From: Owenia fusiformis
Lineage: Eukaryota > Annelida > Polychaeta > Sabellida > Oweniidae
Direction of reading: 5' to 3'
Assembly: GCA_903813345.2 (NCBI GenBank)
Contig: CAIIXF020000007.1
Coordinates: 19,395,564-19,459,563 of the forward strand
DNA: 64,000 bases
The translations under genes and the position numbers were made by a program. How positions within the stretch are numbered: position 1 is the stretch's first letter; every line of letters starts with the position of its first letter. The notes below the pieces were generated by a model. That model was not told the origin of the DNA and searched no databases. It saw only the letters and a program-made list of their open reading frames with translations. Below, piece after piece: positions 4,006 through 52,779 of the stretch.

Positions 4006-7000
4006 TCATTCCTTCTGAGAACTTATAGAAGGAGACCGTGTAATGTTCACTTCATCATTTATGGATTCTGGGTCTTGTTTAATCTCACCGTTTTTATCAT
4101 CAATACAACCTTCAGCTTTTCCATTGTTCACTTCAATGTCCTTAACAGGTACATCTTTGAATCGTTCCAATAGATCAGCAACAAGGTTGTTCAGGTCTGT
4201 CTCATCAGTAGCCTTATCATCATCTTTATACTCTTTTACACTGCTTTCTGTTTCTTTCATGGTAAACCTATGGGCCTGGTTAGTACCCTACAATAGTTTA
4301 CAATGTTAATTGAATTCTGTTACTATTTTCACAGGTTAAAGGCAGATCTGCATGAAACAAACAACAAGCTATGAGTGTGTGAATATTTATTTGATAATTT
4401 GGAAGAACGACAAGTTCCCACTCTTGTTTTATATTCCAAGAATTGTAATAGGTGTTATCATGAGGTGGGAATGTCATATTTTGATAAAATTAAAAAAAAT
4501 TCTTTAAAATATTTTTTGGTAAAGTGCAGGTGCTAGTAAAGCGCAAGAGCATATATATTAATTCCTCTCAGTGGTGTAGCGTGGGTATTTTGTGAGTGTA
4601 CGCAACACTGATCGAAACGAACAAGCTTTGAAGTGAAAGGGGTGGTGGTTTCTCCCTTCAAGGCAATTTGAAAATGAGATTGCATTTGAAGCGTTCTAGA
4701 GTATTTTGAAATACAAGATTCCGACTAATATAGACTAATAAAATGTAAACTACATGTATTTGCAATTTTTATCAATTTTTAAAGTGTGGGGCAATTCAAT
4801 ATGAAAATCAACTGTTCTCTAAATTTTGAAAGTATGCCATGGTATTTTATGCGTATATGATGCTACGCCATTGACTCCAATACTTTACAAAGAAAGATGT
4901 AATCTGACATTTTCGTTAACTTCGTATTTAATTAGAACTGGCTTCCAACAGAACTCCTGTAGAAGAATGATTAGAATGAACAATAACAAGACGTGGCTTA
5001 TTTTAAGTTGAAATATAAATTTGTATGAAATTCTTGATATTTCTTGGCAAAATGTTCTGCACTTTACCAAAATTAGTTGTTCCAATCCTAAGGTAATTTC
5101 CAGTTTGTTTTCAGGTAACATTGTGATTTCTGTTCTGATACTAATTACTGTTATGAAGCTTAGTGTAAGCTTTCACACATTCACGATCTATTGTACAGAC
5201 AGTGGGGTGTCAAATGGCAACATACACTAACATAACTACCAATACACAGAATATATTATTAACAAATGCTCACTGTGTGACACAAAAATAGCATAAGATT
5301 ATCAAAGCGTTTTAAAAAATATTCAGAAACTAGTGTCTCAAAAGTTTTGTACTGGTTCTACTGAATTGTAAACATATAATAAATTTTGCTGAGGGAATCA
5401 ATCAAAAGTAACTTAAAGGGTTAACTGAGTGTGGAAAAATAATTGGCTTCTCCATAATTGTGATCTATAGTTCTAAACATGTCGGACACACCCTGTTATG
5501 TGACACATCATTATTTCAAACACAAGAATTGTATTGTATAATATTTCAAGTAATACCACCCTTACCTCTATGCAATGTACAACAATGTTTCCAGCTGTGA
5601 CTTCACTATGTAACACCTTGTTCTCATGGCAACTAGTGAGACAATTCTGAATCTGTGTCCTCAAACTGTTTATCTTGCTTGTGTCTAGGGTGTTGCCGGA
5701 GTTCAGAAAGTTTTCTAGGGACATTCCATCCTTCTCGATTTTTACCTCATTTATGTCTGAAGACAAGATAGAATACTATGCGGAAAAGTTTGGCAAGTTA
5801 ACAATAAATATCATCCCAATTAAAAAGACGTTTTTTGACAGAAGATGACTGTTTTTCCTGTCTCTATATATCAACATGTGAGATGGATGCATTTTTGATA
5901 TTGTTTTTATCACCAGACTTCACTTTAGTTTCTACATACTTACACCATAAACAATTTAAGTCACATCACTTTTAAATCTGAGTGAGTCCTTACAATTAAA
6001 ATACAAAGTTATTAACATGCAAAATGTCACCATCTTCCATTCGTTGCAGACATCAAACACTGATTGCTGAACACCATCCACAAAAAGATTGGAAACTATA
6101 AAAATATGTCACCACTTGCGATGGTCACATAAGTGATGACACAACTGCAAACTTAAACTATATGTAAACACTACAATAACTTCAATATCTGCCACCAACC
6201 TGCAGCTCCCACATTCACATCAAGGGCTGGCAGTGATCTACACTTAGATCTGCGGAGTCCTTGAGAGCGCCTTAGGGAGGAGCGGGGAGTCACATCCTGG
6301 CGATTATGCCCCAGTGAGAAGCAAGCATATAGGACAGGATTTAAAGCAGCATTCAAAGGGAGCACAAGGGCAGCCAACCATACTATGATGTCCTCATGGA
6401 ACTTTAGACCTGCAAATTTTACATTAAAATTGAGAAGTAGGCATCACAATCCTGTTTTCTACCACTTCAACCTTTGCATCCAAAACTGTTTTTGACAGTT
6501 AGATATCTCTTTGGTGAAAATGGTGAAAATAATTTCCTTTTTTCCTCAAAGCAGTAAAAATCTAATTCTTTTCTTTTAGACACATAGTTCCTCTTCCAAA
6601 CAAAATCTTCCCAGTGTAGATAAGTTGATAAATGTCAGGGATGTGTGCACAATAAGCAAGCAATACTCTCGCAACATAAAATTGAATTTTATCATACTCC
6701 AACAAGTTAACAATTGTCTTATGTTATATATCTGTTAAAATGTTATATATTGTTATAATCTTATATCTGTTAAAATGAATGTTTACAAGTACATACCTGC
6801 CAGCTGGAATATGACGCAGATGAAGATGGCCAGAGAGACAAGGCAGTCAGTCAGCACAATCACCAGCATCTGTAGTGAGAGGACATACTCACTCCTCACA
6901 TGCCTGTTGACCTCACTGTACTTAATCTTGCAGGCTTTGATTAGGACAGCTGTGTAGCAGACGAAGGCAATGATAGTGGAGCTCCCCAAAAGGGTCATGA

Positions 7001-10000
7001 ACACACCAAGGGTATACTCGAATGCGGGACTATGGAGAGGTCCAAGACCTTGACTCACTAGAGGTAAAGCAACGCACATTTTGTTGTCTCCATACAAACC
7101 ATCGAAGTATGCAATCGGGAGGGCAGGTATGATTCCGAAAGCAAGGCTGAAGATCCATGCTATCCCCATAGTGACGTGCATTGCTTTGGGGCTCCATTTA
7201 TCAATATGTGCGGGGATAACAGTGACAACCATCCTCTCAAGAGTGATGACAATGATACTGAACAGAGACATAATGATGCCCACAGTGGAAATGACACCAA
7301 TACTGATGCACAGAATACTGCTACGCCAAGCTGGGCTGACGTAAGGGAACATGTCACGATAGTACAGATCCACCGCAGCAATGATGAGTGTATAGATGCT
7401 TATAAGGAGGTTAGCAAGAGCCATGTGGAACACAAGGATGACTGGAGGGATGGACAACTCCTTGCGAACAATCCTCATACTTATGACATAAACATTACCA
7501 AGTACACCAACCAGCCCAAGTATCCAACATACAATTTCAAGCACTCTTGAGGATGGGTCATTAAATCTCCGAACAAGGTCAGAACAATCTGGAACCTCGG
7601 ATGGTTCCTTTGTAGCCATACATTGAACCTCTTTGTTGGTAAACTCACAGCAGAAGGCATTGTGGTCCACAACACTGAAACAAATAAGAAAAAATAAGAA
7701 AACACAACACTGTATGATGCATAGAATCTCACCTAAAATACCTTGATGCTATTGCAGAGATATTTCTCAATAGAGTATAACATGCCACTGGGCTGAGTTT
7801 TCATTGAGGTATTGAGGTCAATCATGACTCTAAAGCAATGAACATGGAATTAATACATTCATATATTAAATGCATATGACTGCTTTGGATCAAGCTATGA
7901 CATTTTGTTTGTGTTTTAGCCACGATTAAAGAATTTTCAAATTATCAATGAAGTTATTTATAACAAATGATTGTTTAAAAAATTTTAAACTGCAAGAAAA
8001 TAAAAATGTTGGAATGACATGAAAGAAAATTGAAAAAGAACAGGGAAATAAGCTATTGAACTTGGAACAACCTTGCAGAAGTAAGACACACCATGGAAAG
8101 AAACCATAAACAACTCACATTTTCTTCAGGGCAGTAAGGTCCTCAAACAAACCACCAGATATAGAGAGTAAGGGGTTGTTGTCAAGATACCTGTGAACAA
8201 CAAAACATTGAATATAGAAATGACGGTGCTGTATGAAATCTGTATATAAAGTGAGATTTGTACAAAAGACAGTCACAAAAATATGCATTTGTAGTGCATT
8301 ATGCCCAAGATGCCCATTACATGTTCCTGACCATCATTTCCCATGGTATTACCATGGTATATCATGGTTGATGACATTTCATGGCATTTCATTGTATGGT
8401 GTGACAATCAAATACCATGGTCATACTATGGCATTTCATTGCCAAAATCATAACTCTCATTTATCATGGTTTTATCATTGAATTTCATGATTGGTGGTAT
8501 TTCATAGCATTTTATTGTCAAACCTGAGCATCAAATACCATGTTCATACCATGGTATTTCATTGCCATAATCATAACTATGATTTATCATGGCATATCAT
8601 TGCATTTCGTGGTTGATTGTATTTCATACCATTTCATTGTCAAACATGACCATCAAATACCATGGTTATACCATGATATTTGATGGTTTCACAGGTTGTT
8701 GTTTTCATTCATTTAGCCGGTTGTGAGAAATCTAGTGAAACCCCTGCATATTGACATGGTATACCATGGTATATCATGATAATTAAATGGTACCACTGCA
8801 TATCATGCTTGAGTGTCTAGACCATGATATCACTGCATTGATGGTATTTGACCATGAACTACTGTGAAACGGTGGCATTTTTTATATACAAAATTACTTG
8901 TTAATTGACATGATATTAGTTTAGAAAATTTATTCGTATACCATGGTATATCATGATCATTAATGGCACCATTGCATTTCAAAGTTAACAGGGTTTTTTT
9001 CGACTGTGATATCACTGGATTTGATGGTTTCTGACCATTAAATACTGCGAAACGGCAATATTTTTTCAATGGAAAACTCATGGAAAGCAGTTAACCATGA
9101 AATGCAATGGTGCCATTTAACAATCAAGATCGGCCATGATATTACCATGGTATTTCATGACCATAGACCATGGAATGACCATGGTCATACCATGGAATGA
9201 TCATGGTCATACCATGGAATGACCATGGTCCATTTCAACATTGACAGGTTATTCTGTTGATTTCATAAGTATTTTGGCAATGCTGTGGCCATGATTTAGT
9301 CTCAAGATATTGTAAAATGTATATGAGCAATTATAATGGTACATCATTGATTGTCTGGGAGGGGGACCTTGCCCCTTTAAATGAGATTAGTATAGCTTTA
9401 AAAGATGAAATATGAATTAACTTACAATTCTTCCAAAAGGCTGAGTTGTGAAAATGCATCCCTGTGTATACTCTCTATTCTGTTGGATGACAAATCACTA
9501 CAATAAGAACGTAATATTATATTTAAATACAGTTGATAACAAGTGGCATTATCTTTCATTTTCTACTCATGTGATCCTGTCATTTTTCCGAAACTGAGAA
9601 ATATCAACAGTTATGTTTGAAAAGTCTTGAAACTAAGTACTATGTTCACTGTACAATTTTGAACTCAATCATCAGCTTCCTTTGCCAGATTTAATTGCCA
9701 ATTGTTTTATTTTCAAAACCTCTATAATTATACATTATCATTTTTGCAATAGAGTAAAGCACATGGGCTCACATTCTGATACTCATAGCATCTTTCTGTT
9801 TCACCTCAGGGCTGAGAAGAAATGAGATGTCATGGTTTATCATGATGATGGGCTCATATTTGTACTTACATTTTCTTCACTTTGATGAAGCTTTTCAGAC
9901 TTGTTTCATCTAGATGTGATATGATGTTGCCTGTCAGATTTCTAAAAAGATCAAATATAATAGTACCCATCACAAACCAACAAACAATCAATAAACAAAA

Positions 10001-24900: not shown

Positions 24901-27900
24901 TTCAGCTTGTCTACAAACCATTTGAGGGATTCATCTGAAATTTTCAGGGATGTTTCTACATATCAAAGTCAAGAACTGATTAGTTTTTGGGCATTCTGGG
25001 TAAATTTTAAGGTGGCCATTTTGGATTTTCCGTCCTAAAATCTTCACTTTCAAGACTTGTCTACAGGTTTTCAGCCAAACCATTTGAGGGATTCATCTGA
25101 AATTTTCAGGGATGTTTCTACATATCAACGTCAAGAACTGATTAGTTTTTGGGCATCCTGGGTAAATTTTAAGGTGGCCATTTTGGATTTTCCGTCCTAA
25201 AATCTTTACTTTCAAGACTTGTCTACAGGTTTCCAGCCAAACCTTTTGAGGGATTCATCTGAAATTTTCAGGGATGTTTCTACATATCAACGTCAAGAAC
25301 TGATTAGTTTTTGGGCATTCTGGTTAAATTTTAAGGTGGCCATTTTGGATTTTCTGTCCTAAAATCTTCACTTTCAAGACTTGTCTACAGATTTTCAGCC
25401 AAACCATTTGAGGGATTCATCTGAAATTTTCAGGGATGTTTCTACATATCAACGTCAAGAACTGATTGGTTTTTGGGCATTCTGGGTAAATTTTAAGGTG
25501 GCCATTTTGGATTTTCTGTCCTAAAATCTTCACTTTCAAGACTAGTCTACAGGTTTCCAGCCAATCCATTTGAGGGATTCATCTGAAATTTTCAGGGATG
25601 TTTCTACATATCAACGTCAAGAACTGATTAGTTTTTGGGCATTCTGGTTAAATTTTAAGGTGGCCATTTTGGATTTTCTGTCCTAAAATCTTCACTTTCA
25701 AGACTTGTCTACAGATTTTCAGCCAAACCATTTGAGGGATTCATCTGAAATTTTCAGGGATGTTTCTACATATCAACGTCAAGAACTGATTGGTTTTTGG
25801 GCATTCTGGGTAAATTTTAAGGTGGCCATTTTAGATTTTCTGTCCTAAAATCTTCACTTTCAAGACTAGTCTACAGGTTTCCAGCCAAACCATTTGAGGG
25901 ATTCATCTGAAATTTTCAGGGATGTTTCTACATATCAACGTCAAGAACTGATTAGTTTTTGGGCATTCTGGTTAAATTTGAAGGTGGCCATTTTGGATTT
26001 TCTGTCCTAAAATCTTCACTTTCAAGACTTGTCTACAGATTTTCAGCCAAACCATTTGAGGGATTCATCTGAAATTTTCAGGGATGTTTCTACATATCAA
26101 CGTCAAGAACTGATTGGTTTTTGGGCATTCTGGGTAAATTTTTAAGGTGGCCATTTTGGATTTTCTGTCCTAAAATCTTCACTTTCAAGACTAGTCTACA
26201 GGTTTCCAGCCAAACCATTTGAGGGATTCATCTGAAATTTTCAGGGATGTTTCTACGTATCAACGTCAAGAACTGATTAGTTTTTGGGCATTCTGGGTAA
26301 ATGTGGGGAGGATATTGTGATGACATACTCTCGAAAACTAATATGCGGAGGATATTGTGACGATAAACTCTGCTTGTTGATTTACCGCTATATTGAACTC
26401 TTTGACAATAATATTATACACTAGTATACTTCTAGTAAGTGTAGGATAATAAGAACATCCTATGATTTTTTCAGAATATCATTTTAATCTACACTGTGAT
26501 ATATGCACTCATTCGCTACGCTCTCTCTGTGCAATGATATTCCTCAAAAACATAGGATAACCTAGAAGTATCAGAAAATACAGTCTTACATCAAACCTAT
26601 GTGACCCCTAAGCCATCCTCCTAAGCAGGTGTCCAGGGTAGGTACCTCCTTCTTTCCCCCTGCTATAACCAATTTGGAAGCACCCGATAAAACTGAATCA
26701 CGTGATCTAATTATGCGCCGATGACGTATACATGATTGCTGTCGCAATGTTGCGACAGTGAATCAAATTGCGAGTTCTTAATCGGGGAAATGCTAACTGC
26801 TTATCGCAGGGGGTAAAAAGAAAGAAGTATTCTGGATTTTGAAGCCCTGTGATCGGAGGATGCCCCTAAGCACATTGACTTACATTTGGAGGTATAGTAG
26901 ATAAGGCAAGGTGATAATAAGAGAAGGGTCGGTTACGGTTCGGTTCGATTAACCGCGGTTTTTGGCCTCACGGTTCTACTGGGACCGTCTGATCACCAAG
27001 AACCGAGTCCAGAACGGTTCCATCATTCCCGGGGAAATACTTTATTTTCGTGCAGTGTAACATGAATACCAATTTTTTGCGCAAATAATTTCAGCTCTAT
27101 TTCATCTTAATAGCGAATGAAAGAACCATTTAAACGACAATTGAACAACTTAAACGATCCATACGGTAATAAAATTGTCTCCTTGGGTATTTCATTGTGC
27201 TTCCACGTCTCGAGGGAACATAAATCTATTTGCGAGCGCAAGGAGGATTGGCTCCCAGGATCGAAACTCGATATTTTCCAACAATGAAAACGTCGAAATG
27301 TCGTTATTTTCTGAAATTAAAACCGACTATAAATTCAAAATAAACAGTTCAAAAGATTCGAACCAATATCTCGATCATTTCTTGTGAGTTTTGGAATTTT
27401 TCGTTTGGAAATAAGACCAAAATTCACGATTTAAATGTTGAAGTGAACAAAATGGCGGCTGTTTGAATTCGAATTTTGTATTACGACATACCCATATATG
27501 GGACAGAATATCGGTGGTGCACTCTGGGAGCCAATCCTCCTTGTGCGAGCGTGAATTAATTTCGCGTGTTTTAAAAATGGCGGACAGTTTTTGAAGTCTT
27601 AGGAAAAGAGCTAGTAAAACCGTAATAGAGCCTTTCCCCGCGATGCCTAAGTTGGATGCTTGGAAGTATTCGGTTTCTACGATGAGAATATGTCTACCCT
27701 ATGTCGGTTGTGCAACACAACATTGAAGTACGCTGCAGGTTTCCAATTTTTGTGATTGAAACTTTTTGTAATTTTTTTTTAATTTTAAAAATTAAGACTG
27801 CAATCTTTATTAGACTTCAATTCATTCCCTATCTTGTAACTGCCTTCTATTACCCACTCATAGTAACTGTACATTTTTATGAATGATATTTACACTTTTT

Positions 27901-52218: not shown

Positions 52219-52779
52219 CTGGAAGCAAACTTGAACCTAGGATGAAGAAAAATCCTAGTTCATTGTAGTTTGAACTCAAATCTCCTTTTTCAACTCTCTG
52301 ATAGTTCAGGGTTGTTAGTGTAGACATTGCTTTGCGATAGCCCCAAAGATATAGTGACTGTTGGAAAAATTCAATTCACTTTATTTAATTAAAAGTCAAT
52401 CATGCACTCTTTCACACAATACATGAAAACGATTTTCATTAGATTTTCAGCAATCATGTTTTAGTTGTAAACCAGAAGCAATTTAGTGTTTGGCCAAAAC
52501 TGGAAGCAAACTTGAACCTAGGATGAAGAAAAATCCTAGTTCATTGTAGTTTGAACTCAAATCTCCTTTTTCAACTCTCTGATAGTTCAGGGTTGTTAGT
52601 GTAGACATTGCTTTGCGATAGCCCCAAAGATATAGTGACTGTTGGAAAAATTCAATTCACTTTATTTAATTAAAAGTCAATCATGCACTCTTTCACACAA
52701 TACATGAAAACGATTTTCATTAGATTTTCAGCAATCATGTTTTAGTTGTAAACCAGAAGCAATTTAGTGTTTGGCCAAA
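52219..52779. repeat. Direct tandem duplication of 281 bp
   Basis: ctggaagcaaacttgaacct begins at 52219 and again at 52500. By eye the two 280-281 bp copies are identical apart from the last base. This means a very recent duplication, or an assembly artefact. Confidence 0.92.

Follow-up and report, generated by a model that had tools for sequence, protein, structure and literature searches.

A relaxin-receptor-like gene of Owenia fusiformis and a remotely kinase-like exon that may form an optional 3′ tail

The minus strand of the window, by which we mean the whole stretch of 64,000 nucleotides analysed here, carries a gene that, judged by its sequence, is a diverged relaxin-receptor-like LGR with an LRRNT-like cap, few LRRs and a rhodopsin-type 7TM domain. 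Downstream of its TM7 exon lies an exon (5756-5566) which profile comparisons support as distantly related to the kinase segment running from helix D through helix E to the catalytic loop, though catalytically dead. The explanation that we prefer, and to which we give about even chances, is that this LGR gene has an optional kinase-dead 3′ tail that would be used for docking.

The receptor gene and its relatives

The most upstream exon of our gene model is an LRRNT-like exon at 10838-10658 (LRRNT E=0.023, 14.7 bits, below the cut-off; borders TCAG and GTAAGT), no first exon further upstream having been identified. Three LRR exons of 72 nt each follow (9941-9870, 9497-9426 and 8190-8119), then an exon encoding the LGR hinge and TM1-TM6 (7674-6797; 7tm_1 E=1.9e-13) and a TM7 exon with the motif NPVLY (6409-6200), which is either spliced at 6200 or, in a short form, runs on to a stop at 6171. 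From 10838 to 6200 the exons have AG and GT borders throughout and, when joined, give a single open frame on the minus strand. The assignment to the LGRs, already made in the preliminary description, was borne out by two comparisons. The joined ectodomain exons, the three 72-nt exons among them, matched LRR_8 with E=1.3e-25 and 89.4 bits against a cut-off of 27, confirming an LRR ectodomain. When the TM1-TM6 and TM7 exons were compared with solved structures, RXFP1 (7tmw) was the best of 30 PDB sequences with E=4.7e-23, and TSHR, FSHR, LHCGR and LGR4 ranked after it. No LDLa pattern was found in the six frames of the window by a scan that also missed the split LRRs, the first exon being unlocated.

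In a receptor intron there are tandem repeats in which CCATGG and ATACCATGGTAT palindromes abound (8333-8681 and 9167-9230). Elsewhere in the window there are a 162-bp array of 8.6 copies with 96% match (24914-26302) and a perfect 281-bp duplication (52219-52779). Just past the low end of the window an open frame is present on the plus strand (L033 8374-8712), which we take to resemble an exon of a short-chain hydroxysteroid dehydrogenase.

At least 26 further 7TM matches of LGR type, 26-32% identical to the receptor, are present in the genome and make up a lineage expansion. Twenty-one of them are located on C2 (eight) and C12 (13), and many, for example L002-L004 and L010, have the ectodomain and TM1-TM6 within a single long frame. 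We compared the receptor with 12 of the 26. A cysteine-bearing hinge is common to the receptor and its paralogues. The class A activation residues (D2.50, CWxP, DRY and NPxxY) are not present as a set in the receptor: the TM2 Asp at 2.50, which is conserved in 12/12 aligned paralogues, is replaced by Asn; the Trp and Pro of the TM6 CWxP motif, retained by 10/12 and 12/12 paralogues, respectively, are replaced by Ser and Ala; the DRY position reads ERM; and NPxxY is retained as NPVLY. The positions concerned are D2.50, W6.48 and P6.50. Their loss suggests a receptor that operates without the usual class A switching.

A separate TM7 exon was found at eight of the 12 paralogue loci, and none was found at L002, L003 and L006. 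At L009 a repeat array that is open in several frames (1565-2460) separates the TM7 exon from the part encoding TM1-TM6. L013 (C8 25756000-25759500) encodes a 7TM receptor in which TM7 and a tail of more than 300 residues share one frame; this long tail contains no kinase match on its strand.

The kinase-like exon

The exon at 5756-5566 on the minus strand encodes SLENFL...NKVLHSEVTAGNIVV and aligns with the hinge, helix D, helix E, catalytic loop (here HSE) and strand 7 of protein kinases. The Pfam profile Pkinase matches it with 19.4 bits (E=7.6e-4), below the cut-off of 31.7, over profile positions 82-132 and in the register that the preliminary description had named, so that helix D, helix E and the catalytic loop follow each other in register, as a remote match under the gathering score. 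A kinase HMM built from 13 loci of the same genome (L016, L017, L019 and L024, being interrupted, duplicate or unreadable, were excluded) gave the exon 20.9 bits, which none of 20,000 shuffles reached (17,649 reported with a score; best shuffle 13.3). Among 3,312 ORFs, comprising those of the window and of the 12 paralogue loci, the exon ranked first with this HMM (E=4.4e-5) as the sole significant match, the next scoring 5.1 bits. By hhalign the probability of a kinase match was 90.4% (P=1.4e-6), as against 0.1% for the reversed tail, and among PDB sequences the best 60 of 69 matches (E<=10) were all kinases, with a top E of 0.26.

The shuffles, the rank among the ORFs and the hhalign contrast all argue against the view that the likeness is a matter of chance, namely that HxxVxxxNIVV merely happens to follow a pair of amphipathic helices. 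We consider that view unlikely, although it draws on the sub-threshold Pfam score, on the still lower score in the joined tail (16.5 bits, E 0.005-0.006), on the lack of any Pkinase row in Pfam for the piece of the exon beginning at helix E, on the Pfam match, with E=0.0012, that the reversed tail made to an unrelated family and on the fact that the exon was singled out from 64 kb. In the version of the tail given in the preliminary description, an unrelated glycosyl hydrolase family equalled Pkinase (E=0.0057), and NCBIfam returned only weak bacterial rows for the tail, the best being a Ser/Thr kinase at E 0.0058. Two fragments of true kinases, 63 and 67 residues long, served as Pfam controls and scored 68.7 and 58.6 bits. 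Since genuine fragments score so much higher, and in view of the drop in the joined tail and the results with the trimmed piece and the reversed tail, we describe the likeness as remote; that it is a kinase likeness of this remote kind is probable on the sequence comparisons.

When HSEVTAGNIVV is aligned to a loop of the HRDLKPENILL type, the His and Asn are kept and the catalytic Asp is changed to Glu. This change from HRD to HSE had been pointed out before, as had the absence of an N-lobe, and both observations hold. In the gene model only a short basic stretch is found between TM7 and the kinase-like exon where the glycine loop and Lys of an N-lobe would be expected, and the kinase HMM revealed no significant N-lobe exon in the window or in the 20 kb past its low end, a search that a very degenerate N-lobe could escape. 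The earlier term 'half kinase' proved too strong, the match being confined to 51 of the 263 positions of the Pkinase profile.

Two further leads were set aside. The letters GNIVV and KYE had prompted the idea of APH, choline-kinase or ABC1 membership, for which the tail pieces gave no Pfam row. A made-up kinase consensus ranked the tail first of 34 genome matches; this rank was discounted as evidence because the query had been partly modelled on the tail. Further copies of the kinase-like exon or of the last exon were not found in the genome, by a search that can miss matches; this counts against the optional tail.

Structural comparisons spoke less clearly. AlphaFold2, given the exon alone as a single sequence, produced a best model with a mean pLDDT of 79 (56-68 for the other four), in which a strand is followed by helices at residues 13-18 and 25-45 and two more strands (E-H-H-E-E). 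With this model protein kinases were absent from the best 50 of 283 Foldseek rows (E<=10; best E 0.87), a result that would suit a chance resemblance. In a second structural comparison four of the 40 rows were kinase-related (the intracellular domain of guanylyl cyclase A (GC-A), TTK twice and MAP2K7), with rmsd 2.9-3.6 and Z 2.4-3.3; around them stood designed and ferredoxin-like folds, mostly near 6 angstrom, most of the other rows having rmsd >5, and the top Z rows were designed proteins, two of which lead the list at Z 3.5. A control kinase fragment of equal length, folded alone, reached a pLDDT of 55.7 and had no strands. Because this genuine fragment gave a poorer model (it was not itself searched), the absence of kinases from the Foldseek rows tells us little, and the model-based evidence on kinase likeness is weak in either direction.

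The 3′ end of the gene

The preliminary description had joined this exon to the receptor through a junction 6200/5756, which is indeed present as a GT-AG site, in phase 1 and in frame, with an intron of 443 nt. Because such an in-frame junction exists, the fusion of the kinase-like exon to the receptor is plausible. Splice sites were scored with a matrix of approximate weights. The measure is rough: even the TM7 exon, about whose reality there is no doubt, has an acceptor that scores poorly (27.6%). By this measure donor 6200 (CAG/GTTGGT) is middling, 3.9% of the GTs on the strand scoring equally well; acceptor 5756 is good (2.6% of AGs) and donor 5566 very strong (0.1%). Acceptor 4275, further downstream, is weak (17.6%), its alternatives 4287 and 4267 standing at 42.2% and 11.4%, respectively.

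We propose that both 3′ ends of the gene may be in use. Where donor 6200 is left unused, translation would run to the stop at 6171 and leave the protein with a short tail of the ordinary kind. Where it is used, the tail would gain a degenerate, kinase-dead C-lobe fragment consisting of helix D, helix E and the HSE loop. Such a non-catalytic fragment might serve as a surface for docking, either recruiting a kinase, a scaffold or an arrestin or competing for one, and splicing would thereby switch the partners of the receptor. The receptor, the in-frame junction and the remote kinase likeness are what the sequence shows; that the junction is used and that the tail serves for docking is what we infer. 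The good acceptor and very strong donor of exon 5756-5566 and its in-frame phase-1 join favour an optional tail. Against it stand the middling quality of donor 6200 and the length of the short form: by hand count 51 residues follow NPVLY up to the stop at 6171, and the eight paralogue TM7 exons that were found all have 41-57 residues from NPxxY to stop, lengths that presuppose that these exons are not spliced onward.

The same two points, a tail length typical of the family (8/8) and a donor of only middling strength, are what commends a simpler account, in which the stop at 6171 ends the receptor, in keeping with its paralogues, and everything from the kinase-like exon onward belongs either to a small transcript of its own or to a downstream kinase fragment that has decayed. 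An ATG inside exon 5756-5566 (MSLENFL) could serve this account, as could the outcome of a simulation of neutral decay without indels, in which 12% of such exons were still open at 35% identity; for this reason the open frame taken alone is weak evidence. Codon use speaks for the exon in its synonymous choices alone, on which just 0.9% of the non-coding open pieces sampled (the pool comprised 126 stretches) score as high; its full codon score was not significant (7.4%), in a test trained on 21 loci that is rough because the longest frame of one of them (L009) is a repeat array. The simpler account sits less well with the good quality of the splice sites that flank the exon, and the frame is open ahead of the MSLENFL ATG, where the AlphaFold2 model places a strand. 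Moreover, the window and the 20 kb past its low end yielded no second ORF with significant kinase likeness to which the exon could belong. We regard this account as possible, at lower odds than the optional tail.

Evidence for kinase likeness did not extend to the end of the tail. The last open stretch on the minus strand (4287-4006, with possible acceptors at 4287, 4275 and 4267) is acidic, ends in SSQKE-stop and encodes TDETDLNNLVADLLERF in frame; this sequence and SLENFL...NKVLHSEVTAGNIVV are both located where they had been reported. The proposal that it contains helix F found no support: the exon had no match to the own-genome kinase HMM, its PSSM score as helix F was equalled by 5.6% of the pieces with an open frame and by 1.0% of the shuffles, and hhalign, run on the last two exons jointly, gave 0.3%. 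Kinase likeness is carried beyond chance for exon 5756-5566 by the shuffles and the profile-profile comparison, and is not confirmed for the second exon.

A possible extra exon, which the preliminary description had missed, is present at 4956-4889 on the minus strand. It encodes WKPVLIKYEV at the place where strand 8 and DFG would fall and has a strong acceptor (1.6% of AGs) and a weak donor (45.9% of GTs). Neither the kinase HMM nor the PSSM gave it profile support, 73% of random pieces reaching its PSSM score, and in view of this score and the weak donor we regard the exon as unproven. Because a stop interrupts its frame at the donor, it could also be the terminal one. The frame is preserved by splicing from 5566 to 4287 or 4275, or from 5566 to 4956 and from 4889 to 4267. 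The candidates for DFG and helix F, KYE and the DLNNLVADLL helix, are thus both without profile backing, and codon use gave no clear signal for 4956-4889 or 4287-4006.

A bolder version of the optional-tail proposal would combine a pseudo-GPCR with a pseudokinase: an animal rhodopsin-class LGR with decayed switches and an alternatively spliced, kinase-dead C-lobe as output module, signalling by docking and not through G proteins. We offer this version tentatively and think it rather less likely than the optional tail as such.

Comparison with known systems

The receptor resembles RXFP1/2 and the GRL101-type invertebrate LGRs in its 7TM domain (RXFP1 being the closest structure) and in its LRRs. 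It differs from them in the loss of D2.50 and W6.48/P6.50, in the possible kinase-like tail and in that no LDLa pattern was found, with the first exon unlocated.

Fusions of 7TM receptors with kinases (GPCR-TKL/K and GPCR-TK) have been described from oomycetes, amoebozoans and choanoflagellates, the GPCR-TKs occurring also in sponges, though in no further lineage of metazoans; none had been functionally characterised to its authors' knowledge (PMC12716839). These proteins likewise have a 7TM domain followed by a C-terminal kinase-related segment, but the 7TM families to which their kinase domains are attached are different ones (PMC12716839). The present case would concern a rhodopsin-class LGR with only about 50 kinase-like residues. 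In place of a kinase domain C-terminal to the 7TM part, we find a match to Pkinase positions 82-132 of 263. Searches of open-licence papers listed no LGR of a bilaterian whose tail resembles a kinase.

The architecture of the tail would be unusual for a receptor, if true. If an animal receptor of the relaxin type did combine a kinase-dead tail with the loss of its class A switches, it would make docking-based signalling testable; should receptor transcripts lack the tail, all that remains is a curious downstream exon.

Among receptors with kinase-dead segments, the kinase-homology domain of GC-A has a catalytic loop without the catalytic Asp. Receptor pseudokinases such as GC-A retain both N- and C-lobes and are single-pass receptors. 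Exon 5756-5566 shares with GC-A the absence of the catalytic Asp, and the intracellular chain of GC-A (9bcs) is among its structural matches (Z 3.3, rmsd 3.1, 51 aligned). Unlike pseudokinases of the GC-A type, the putative tail would be without an N-lobe and would be carried by a 7TM receptor.
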